Of a stretch of 38,877 nucleotides of DNA, positions 7,223 to 26,811 are shown piece after piece. Below the pieces are notes generated by a model. That model was not told the origin of the DNA, made no database searches, and worked only from the letters and a program-made list of their open reading frames with translations. The translations under genes and the position numbers were made by a program. The DNA is from Chitinophaga pinensis (GTDB lineage: Bacteria > Bacteroidota > Bacteroidia > Chitinophagales > Chitinophagaceae): positions 1 to 38,877 of the forward strand of contig CAMBTV010000002.1 in assembly GCA_945870835.1 (NCBI GenBank). The letters run 5' to 3'. Within the stretch, counting starts at the first letter, position 1; every line of letters begins with the position of its first letter.

Positions 7223-7316
7223 GAGTTTTTTTACAAAAGTAAGGACTAGCCCGTTGATCTTTTAAAATTTGTTAGTGCATGAAAAATTATAAATAGATAA
7301 ATAAAAAATAAAAATA

Positions 7317-7347
7317 TTTGGAATAACTAAAAAAGTTAGTATATTTG
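7317..7347 (+). promoter_or_regulatory. Bacteroidetes-type promoter of the XRE/S24 gene (TTTG-N19-TATATTTG)
   Basis: TTTG at 7317-7320, 19-nt spacer, TATATTTG at 7340-7347. Confidence 0.8.
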
Positions 7348-7363
7348 TACTAATCAAATTAGT
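7326..7363. promoter_or_regulatory. two operator dyads ACTAA-N5-TTAGT flanking the -7 element
   Basis: ACTAAaaaagTTAGT at 7326-7340 and ACTAAtcaaaTTAGT at 7349-7363; same half-sites and spacing. Confidence 0.7.
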
Positions 7364-7369
7364 TATACT

Positions 7370-8122
7370 ATGTCACAGGCTGGCCAAAATCTAAAATATC
7401 TGCGTAAACTTCGCGGATGGACACAGGAGGAATTTGCAGTTAAACTCGGAATTAAACGATCACTGGTAGGTGCTTATGAAGAGGAGCGGGCAGATCCAAG
7501 GCTTGAAGTGCTCGAGATTGTAGGGGATACTTTTAAGCTTAGTTTAGACGAATTATTACTAAAAGACCTCAGTAACACGGGAGAAAGTTTTTTGGCCAAG
7601 CGCAGGCAGCAAAAAATGATGTCCGCCGATAGAAATGTTATTCATTTTGTACCGGTAAAAGCAGCCGCTGGTTATCTTGCTGGATATGCAGACAGTGAAT
7701 TTATAGATGAGTTAAATACATTTACGCTTCCAATGTTGGCTGGTGGAAATTATCGGGCATTTGAAATAATTGGGGATAGTATGATGCCTACACCTAGCGG
7801 AAGTATTATTGTAGGGGAAAAGGTGGATGATTCAGAAGATCTTAAAAATGACCAGGCTTATATTGTGGTTAGTAGAAATGAGGGTATTGTATATAAAAGA
7901 ATTGTAAAGAATAACCGTCTAAAAAATAAATTAACCTTGGTAAGTGATAACCCTCAATATCAGCCTTACCAAGTAAATGCAGAAGACATAGTAGAACTCT
8001 GGCAGGCACAAATGGTTATCAGTAAAGTAAGTGCTCAACAGCGCTGGGATATGAATTCTTTAGCAAGCATGGTGAACAATCTTCAAAGTCAGGTTACTAC
8101 CTTAAAAAAGAAAATGAACTAG
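7370..8122 (+). CDS. XRE-family HTH regulator fused to S24/LexA-like peptidase domain
   Basis: 250 aa; HTH (LRGWTQEEFAVKLGIKRSLVGAYEEERADP), putative cleavage region KAAAGYLAG, catalytic GDSM and YKRI. Confidence 0.93.
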   Translation: MSQAGQNLKYLRKLRGWTQEEFAVKLGIKRSLVGAYEEERADPRLEVLEIVGDTFKLSLDELLLKDLSNTGESFLAKRRQQKMMSADRNVIHFVPVKAAAGYLAGYADSEFIDELNTFTLPMLAGGNYRAFEIIGDSMMPTPSGSIIVGEKVDDSEDLKNDQAYIVVSRNEGIVYKRIVKNNRLKNKLTLVSDNPQYQPYQVNAEDIVELWQAQMVISKVSAQQRWDMNSLASMVNNLQSQVTTLKKKMN

Positions 8123-8385
8123 TTTCTTCAGGTGTAATTTATTAAAGTTCAATAGTTACAAAGGGACCGGAAATTTGTCTCCTTTATTAAAGATTAGCTA
8201 GGATTTGCATGATCCAAAAACAATCTTTGAATAATTTAACTGATTACAAAATCTATATACCTACTGTTCATTTACGATAAAGGGCTAGCACTGTATTGTT
8301 TGTGAGAAAAAACTTAAGTACCAGTCCGTGAATTTTCATAATTTTCAAATTCAGATACATCGATTAACATTTAAAAAAAACAATT

Positions 8386-8817
8386 ATGATCAAATTACAA
8401 ATCATCGGCAATCTTGGTAAAGATTGCATCGTAAAAGAAGTGAACGGAAAAAATGTAATTAATTTTAGCGTAGCGCACACAGAGCGGTACAAAGACAGTC
8501 AAGGAAATCAGAAGGAGCGAACAACCTGGGTAGAATGCGCCTATTGGACTGACAAAACAGCCGTAGCCCAATATCTTACAAGAGGAAGAACTGTATACGC
8601 GGAGGGCTCTCCTGAGGCAGATGCTTACACAAACAAAGAAAATCAACCTGCCGCTACATTAAGAATGAGAGTTCAAAGTGTTCAATTACTCGGAGGAACA
8701 GGAGCAGAAGGGTCATCTCAAAATAATGGATCGATGTCTTCAGCGGCCACTTCAGCATCAAGCTCACCAAGTTCTAAAGTTTCAAGTGAAGTAGGAGCAG
8801 ATGATTTGCCTTTTTAG
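8386..8817 (+). CDS. ssb: single-stranded DNA-binding protein
   Basis: 143 aa; OB fold (MIKLQIIGNLGKDC...INFSVAHTERYKD...WVECAYW) and acidic tip DDLPF. Confidence 0.95.
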   Translation: MIKLQIIGNLGKDCIVKEVNGKNVINFSVAHTERYKDSQGNQKERTTWVECAYWTDKTAVAQYLTRGRTVYAEGSPEADAYTNKENQPAATLRMRVQSVQLLGGTGAEGSSQNNGSMSSAATSASSSPSSKVSSEVGADDLPF

Positions 8818-25662: not shown

Positions 25663-26811
25663 ATGAAAAAGGCTATAATTAAACTAACAGGGTTAGTTGT
25701 TTTACTGGTAAGCGCCACCAGTTATGTTCAAGCGCAGGATCCTACTATCAATGTTGTAACCTCTGCAGTACCTTTCTTAAGAATCTCTCCAGATGCTAGA
25801 AGCGGAGGAATGGGTGACTTGGGGATTGCTACTTCACCAGACGCTAATTCAGCATTTTGGAATTTAGCTAAAACCCCATTCAATACCAACAAAGGGGGCA
25901 TTTCTGTGACCTACACTCCATGGCTCAAGGATCTTGGGTTGAATGATGTTTATCTAGCTTCATTATCTGGATATTATAAATTAGATGAGGAACAAGCAAT
26001 TTCCAGTTCTATGAGGTATTTTAGTTTAGGAAGTATTCAATTTACTGACAATCTAGGAAATGATCTTAGCTCTTACCGTCCAAGGGAGTTTGCCTTTGAT
26101 GCGGGATATTCAAGAAAGTTATCTAGTAAATTGTCCTTGGGCGTTGCATTAAGGTATATTAATTCTAACCTTGCAAGCGGCACTATCAACGGAGTTTCCT
26201 ATAAGGCTGGTTCTTCTGTAGCTGGAGATTTGAGTCTTTTTCATACAGGAACTGCATCTGGTGGCTCTGGCTTTAATTATGGAGTTACTTTGGCTAATTT
26301 AGGTTCAAAAATTTCCTATACAAGTGATGCAAATCAAAAGGATTTTATTCCTGCTAATCTTGGTTTGGGTGTTACTTATACCCGAGAAATTGATAAAACT
26401 AATAAAATAACTTTCGGTATAGATATCCATAAATTATTGGTACCAACGCCTCCATTAGTAGGTGACAGTGCTGGGCTAGTAAGTTACCGTAGTAAAGGGG
26501 TTGTAGGTAGTTGGTTTAGCTCATTTGGTGATGCATCAGGTGGATTCTCGGAGGAGTTGAAAGAATTTCAGACATCTTTGGGGGCAGAATATTGGTATAA
26601 TAACCAGTTTGCTTTACGCGCAGGTTATTTTTATGAAAATCCAACCAAAGGAAATAGACAATATTTTACATTGGGTGCAGGTTTAAAATATAGCACTTAT
26701 GGAATCAATTTCTCCTACCTTTTACCTTCTGGATCAGGGGTAAGTCGTAATCCTCTGTCTAACACTTTAAGATTTAGCTTAGTGTTTGACTTTGCTGAAG
26801 GGAAAAAGTAG
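25663..26811 (+). CDS. porV: type IX secretion outer-membrane shuttle protein PorV
   Basis: 382 aa; signal peptide; VPFLRISPDARSGGMGDLGIATSPDANSAFWN; beta-barrel-like C-terminus. Confidence 0.92.
   Translation: MKKAIIKLTGLVVLLVSATSYVQAQDPTINVVTSAVPFLRISPDARSGGMGDLGIATSPDANSAFWNLAKTPFNTNKGGISVTYTPWLKDLGLNDVYLASLSGYYKLDEEQAISSSMRYFSLGSIQFTDNLGNDLSSYRPREFAFDAGYSRKLSSKLSLGVALRYINSNLASGTINGVSYKAGSSVAGDLSLFHTGTASGGSGFNYGVTLANLGSKISYTSDANQKDFIPANLGLGVTYTREIDKTNKITFGIDIHKLLVPTPPLVGDSAGLVSYRSKGVVGSWFSSFGDASGGFSEELKEFQTSLGAEYWYNNQFALRAGYFYENPTKGNRQYFTLGAGLKYSTYGINFSYLLPSGSGVSRNPLSNTLRFSLVFDFAEGKK

Follow-up and report, generated by a model that had tools for sequence, protein, structure and literature searches.

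Among the non-canonical LexA proteins of the Bacteroidetes, a group that recognizes CTAA-N5-TTAG operators was described by Sanchez-Osuna et al. in 2021 (PMC8565304). For Pontibacter actiniarum, whose LexA (WP_025606010.1) belongs to this group, that account reports binding by EMSA and mitomycin C induction by RT-qPCR. The published regulon comprises recA, umuDC, topoisomerase IV and an exonuclease/GIY-YIG gene, and the Chitinophagaceae are named among the taxa with large regulons (PMC8565304). The same source reports that spacer changes left binding in EMSA unaffected and regards the non-canonical family as probably derived from phage repressors. Its main text describes two or more motif instances in several promoters and a terminal helix of unknown function, and makes no mention of cooperativity or tetramers.

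The locus analyzed here lies in a window of 38,877 nucleotides (the whole stretch of DNA under study). It encodes an HTH_3-S24 fusion with an Ala-Gly bond and a Ser-Lys pair, carries CTAA-N5-TTAG in its own promoter, and shares this motif with SOS genes of the same genome. Judged by its sequence, the gene is a member of the already published CTAA-N5-TTAG LexA group, and neither its kind nor its predicted autoregulation is new.

Predicted operator pair and promoter layout upstream of lexA

The features of the locus are as follows.

7317-7320, plus strand: TTTG, -33 element of the predicted promoter (direct reading; kept in orthologues)
7326-7340, no strand assigned: predicted operator site 1, ACTAAAAAAGTTAGT, between the -33 and -7 elements
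7340-7347, plus strand: -7 box TATATTTG, in the gap separating the two operators
7349-7363, no strand assigned: predicted operator site 2, ACTAATCAAATTAGT, covering the predicted transcription start
7370, plus strand: ATG start codon of lexA
7370-8122, plus strand: non-canonical LexA, 250 aa (Pfam, 45-sequence alignment, AlphaFold2 model, fold search)
8386-8817, plus strand: ssb, downstream of lexA (Pfam SSB)

The two ACTAA-N5-TTAGT dyads are 23 bp apart, start to start, and flank the -7 box, which follows TTTG after an N19 spacer. An earlier, sequence-only reading of the locus had placed the dyads, their distance and the TTTG-N19-TATATTTG promoter at exactly these positions. The consensus of the Bacteroidetes primary sigma factor is TTTG / TAnnTTTG (PMC7366714). 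The two sites had been called identical, which is true of their half-sites, whereas their 5-bp spacers differ. Likewise, the extra half-sites proposed as additions to the pair, TTAGT at 7272-7276 and ACTA at 7367-7370, are present but are not conserved in orthologues; for that reason they are probably chance occurrences and were rejected as operator parts.

No further copy of the motif had been seen in the window by eye. However, a third exact ACTAA-N5-TTAGT copy, ACTAACAGGGTTAGT, lies at 25683-25697, in the opening codons of a PorV-like gene for type IX secretion, where it is probably due to chance. When two mismatches are allowed, the window contains 45 occurrences against 41 expected, equal to chance frequency, and the 2.8-Mb assembly holds 8 exact copies versus 28 of a reversed control pattern, which is no excess. 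With the genome-wide count at or below the control, motif frequency was rejected as evidence; the evidence is the position and pairing of the sites, not their copy number.

To assess conservation, orthologues were drawn from 80 loci from named contigs plus whole genomes of Chitinophagaceae. A match was present in 58 of 61 whole genomes, mostly at 56-83% identity. In a non-redundant set of 98 orthologue promoters (pairwise identity <75%), 83 carry two exact CTAA-N5-TTAG dyads 22 to 24 bp apart, although, as these relatives share descent, the promoters cannot be counted as independent trials. The spacing equals 23 bp in 74 promoters, 22 bp in 6 and 24 bp in 3, and shuffled promoters yielded no pair of exact dyads at 22 to 24 bp. 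Because most orthologues keep the pair and the shuffles produce none, the paired dyads are not a chance arrangement of the sequence.

The footprint across 110 orthologues shows a block of TTTG, dyad, TAtaTTTG and dyad upstream of the ATG in nearly all of them. Among the 94 orthologue promoters with a pair at 22 to 24 bp, TTTG or a T-run directly upstream of site 1 occurs in 92, and the -7 box matches TANNTTTG in 66, or in 92 if a looser form is accepted. At site 1, the half-sites are constant and the 5-bp centre is variable, as expected, at the sequence level, of a palindrome bound by a protein. The twin dyads at the start of lexA are most likely the sites of autorepression by the gene's own product.

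Whereas the centre of site 1 varies, that of site 2 (TCAAA/CCAAA) hardly changes among many Chitinophagaceae. This constancy may reflect the transcription start or the leader.

The LexA protein and its predicted regulon

The HTH and S24 domains with an Ala-Gly region that had been recognized by eye were recovered by Pfam as HTH_3 (PF01381, residues 8-62, 2.6e-12) and Peptidase_S24 (PF00717, residues 98-207, 7.9e-09); the LexA winged-HTH domain PF01726 is absent from the Pfam matches of this protein. Ala100, Gly101, Ser137 and Lys176 are invariant in an alignment of 45 orthologues, with Ala100-Gly101 as the predicted cleavage bond and Ser137 and Lys176 as the predicted catalytic residues. E. 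coli LexA has A84-G85, S119 and K156, in the same order and at roughly the same spacing. Confidence in the AlphaFold2 model is modest (mean pLDDT only 65). Its best fold matches in the PDB are the lambda-186 hybrid repressor, LexA proteins and the lambda CI C-terminal domain, and its N-terminus matches the small all-helical HTH domains of ImmR, SinR and P22 c2. In addition, a C-terminal helix (residues about 228-249) shows a 4-3 heptad pattern of hydrophobic residues (L231, V235, L238, V242 and L245), of which L238 and V242 are invariant in the same alignment.

Across the genome, RCTAA-N5-TTAGY occurs at 19 sites, most of them within coding sequences. Clean promoter sites are listed below by contig position; distances refer to the nearest ATG, taken as the start codon, which may be wrong for some genes.

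lexA (this gene): two clean promoter sites
C25:4795: recA, site 85 bp before the start
C126:6823: umuD (then umuC), site 2 bp before the start
C38:11957: gyrB/parE-type gene, site 131 bp before the start
C27:9163: gene with RNase_T exonuclease and GIY-YIG domains, site 20 bp before the start

At the sequence level, these sites bear out the earlier prediction of an SOS-type switch. Of the partners then suggested, recA and, via umuDC, umuC are included; dinB, imuB and dnaE2, on the other hand, are not clearly so. An exact site within 250 bp was found at 3 of 23 Y-family polymerase genes in eight genomes, which leaves dinB and imuB weak as general targets, and dinB in this genome has no clear site. 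Several of the Y-family genes lacking a site are umuC genes behind umuD in umuDC. The neighboring ssb was rejected as a target, as its upstream region (8123-8385) contains no site with up to two mismatches. Among relatives, an exact site is present at 14 of 14 recA loci and 26 of 29 umuD loci, and a genus-mate (G035) has sites at lexA (two), recA and umuD.

Two side observations concern individual sites. The sequence GCTAATTTAATTAGC at L216:1561-1575 (C225:2360) is located 8 bp before a 255-aa ORF without a Pfam match, which is a possible further candidate target. At L009:5958-5972, which lies upstream of a parE-type gene, an exact site overlaps TAATTTTG, and directly before this site is a second promoter-like TATATTTG.

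The domain composition, the motif at the recA, umuDC, parE-type and exonuclease genes, and its recurrence at recA and umuD in relatives favor the autorepression and SOS-type switch originally proposed, and the EMSA and mitomycin C RT-qPCR data for the same family and motif in relatives (PMC8565304) give it further backing. The best explanation, with a probability of roughly 0.9, is that the gene encodes the SOS master repressor, a non-canonical LexA with twin-dyad autorepression and cleavage-driven derepression of its regulon. Its basis in this genome is the motif, its spacing and conservation, its presence at SOS promoters, and the catalytic residues, joined by the binding and mitomycin induction data of others in relatives. 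RecA-stimulated cleavage, steric repression and cooperativity of this particular protein are what we infer.

In the proposed mechanism, LexA dimers would occupy the two dyads, which both flank and overlap the -7 box together with the predicted transcription start, and the bound dimers would block access of sigma factor and RNA polymerase to the lexA promoter. Through the same motif, LexA would repress recA, umuDC, the parE-type gene and the exonuclease/GIY-YIG gene. Upon DNA damage, the RecA filament would stimulate cleavage of Ala100-Gly101 via the Ser137/Lys176 dyad, and the regulon would be derepressed.

The 23-bp spacing beyond lexA

The spacing recurs at other promoters. In 43 recA, umuD and Y-family polymerase promoters, offsets were scored relative to whichever exact site lies closest to the start codon. 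Six or more of the 8 motif letters match at offset -23 in 67% of these promoters, compared to at most 9% at any other offset. At recA and umuD, the exact dyad is preceded at 23 bp by another copy that is often degenerate (offset -23 or -22 at recA). The umuD gap mostly reads ATAAATTT, so that a -7-like box again lies between the copies; at recA, where the second copy is weak, no -7 box is evident between them.

A class-wide sample of LexA homologues gave 38 high-scoring promoter pairs, 13 of them spaced at 23 bp versus 0.45 expected from shuffles, a result that confirms rather than discovers the spacing, since the pair score was devised after 23-bp pairs had been seen. These 23-bp pairs often have altered half-sites (CTAT, CTAC), with a TATATTTG-like box between the copies. 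The search also returns AT-rich false pairs, for example at lag 27; only lags 23 and 17 show clear dyads above the shuffled background, lag 17 being a small set. CTAA-N5-TTAG-like pairs at 17 bp were observed in LexA homologues of some other families (L254, L255, L258, L266 and L276).

Divergent LexA-like paralogues of the Chitinophagaceae (about 38% identity) use a different dyad, roughly GWTAY-N5-RTARC. In 5 of 12 of their promoters the best-scoring pair is spaced at 23 bp, where a pair of this score has a background of about 0.002 per promoter, and the -7 box precedes both copies. In the upstream 110 bp of L224, L225, L228, L229 and L230, a twin palindrome such as GATACCAATAATATC-N8-GATATCAATAATACC, 23 bp apart, directly follows a TANNTTTG box.

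As the spacing is kept in this divergent group, where the promoter makes no demand on it, contact between two dimers is favored. By analogy, the 23-bp spacing suggests pairwise cooperative binding similar to that of lambda CI: two dimers would sit side by side in mutual contact, with the S24 domain or the C-terminal heptad helix as possible contact surfaces. We give an even chance to the broader proposal that non-canonical Bacteroidota LexA proteins act as cooperative dimer pairs on a fixed 23-bp twin operator, a geometry that would be a family property kept at lexA, recA, umuD and the divergent paralogues, with a spacing that is stable while the recognized letters drift and the heptad helix as the candidate contact.

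The same data could also be explained by a LexA that binds each site independently, one dimer per site, with the 23 bp reflecting nothing more than the requirement to occlude both the -33/-7 region and the start point. The -7 box in the 8-bp gap of both the lexA and umuD promoters would fit such a constraint, as would the 17-bp pairs or single sites of some families. However, the 23-bp pair of the divergent paralogues lies wholly downstream of the -7 box, and recA keeps its weak second copy at -23 (or -22) with no evident -7 box in the gap; we regard independent binding as a possible but less likely account. It does touch the preferred reading, in that the twin spacing at lexA and umuD could partly be a promoter constraint, with the -7 box in the gap.

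Another alternative is that the dyads are no operators at all but one conserved strong promoter with its leader, held in place by the sigma factor and the translation start. In its favor, conservation extends beyond the dyads to the leader and to the -33 and -7 elements, and also to the spacer of site 2, whose unusually constant centre also weighs against the SOS repressor reading, given that published spacer changes did not affect binding (PMC8565304). In contrast, the varying centre between fixed half-sites at site 1, the recurrence of these dyads at recA and umuD with a different distance to the ATG, and the retention of 23 bp in paralogues with a changed dyad placed downstream of the -7 box make a pure promoter and leader highly improbable. 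There is equally little chance that the protein is the CI-type repressor of a resident prophage, with dyads that control only itself or a lysis/lysogeny decision. This would account for the CI-type HTH and S24 fold, the paired operators, as with phage repressors, and the probable phage-repressor origin of the family (PMC8565304), but most of the family members sampled carry the gene (56-98% identity) under a conserved promoter, the genes around it are housekeeping genes such as ssb, and the motif recurs at recA, umuDC and the parE-type gene of the same genome.

Comparison with known systems

The raw sequence of an uncultured Chitinophagaceae genome confirms a chromosomal SOS repressor of the phage-repressor type and yields a list of its likely targets. 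Since the motif alone occurs at chance frequency, the 23-bp pairing, if cooperative, would help explain how a motif of 8 letters gains sufficient specificity in an AT-rich genome. Such cooperative pairing would also indicate that operator spacing can outlast operator sequence in evolution, and the role of the C-terminal helix becomes testable.

With the published CTAA-N5-TTAG group, this locus has in common the HTH_3 and S24 domains, the Ala-Gly, Ser and Lys residues, CTAA-N5-TTAG operators and predicted autoregulation, as well as a predicted regulon of recA, umuDC, a topoisomerase IV/parE-type gene and an exonuclease/GIY-YIG gene. Neither the constant 23-bp twin nor its occurrence in paralogues that use another dyad is discussed in the main text of the published description (PMC8565304); on that text, the geometry is possibly new, and priority is not claimed.

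Canonical LexA of the E. coli type shares the S24 autoproteolysis domain and the SOS role, but it differs in its PF01726 winged HTH and in its unrelated motif, CTGT-N8-ACAG. A parallel in geometry is lambda CI, whose operators are spaced about 23-24 bp centre to centre. Adjacent lambda CI dimers interact pairwise (PMC5880393). The likeness to lambda CI at OR/OL extends to the CI-like HTH, the S24 domain and paired operators at a similar spacing. Unlike lambda CI, the protein described here is a predicted chromosomal SOS regulator with one regulon-wide motif, a C-terminal heptad helix, and two sites rather than three.
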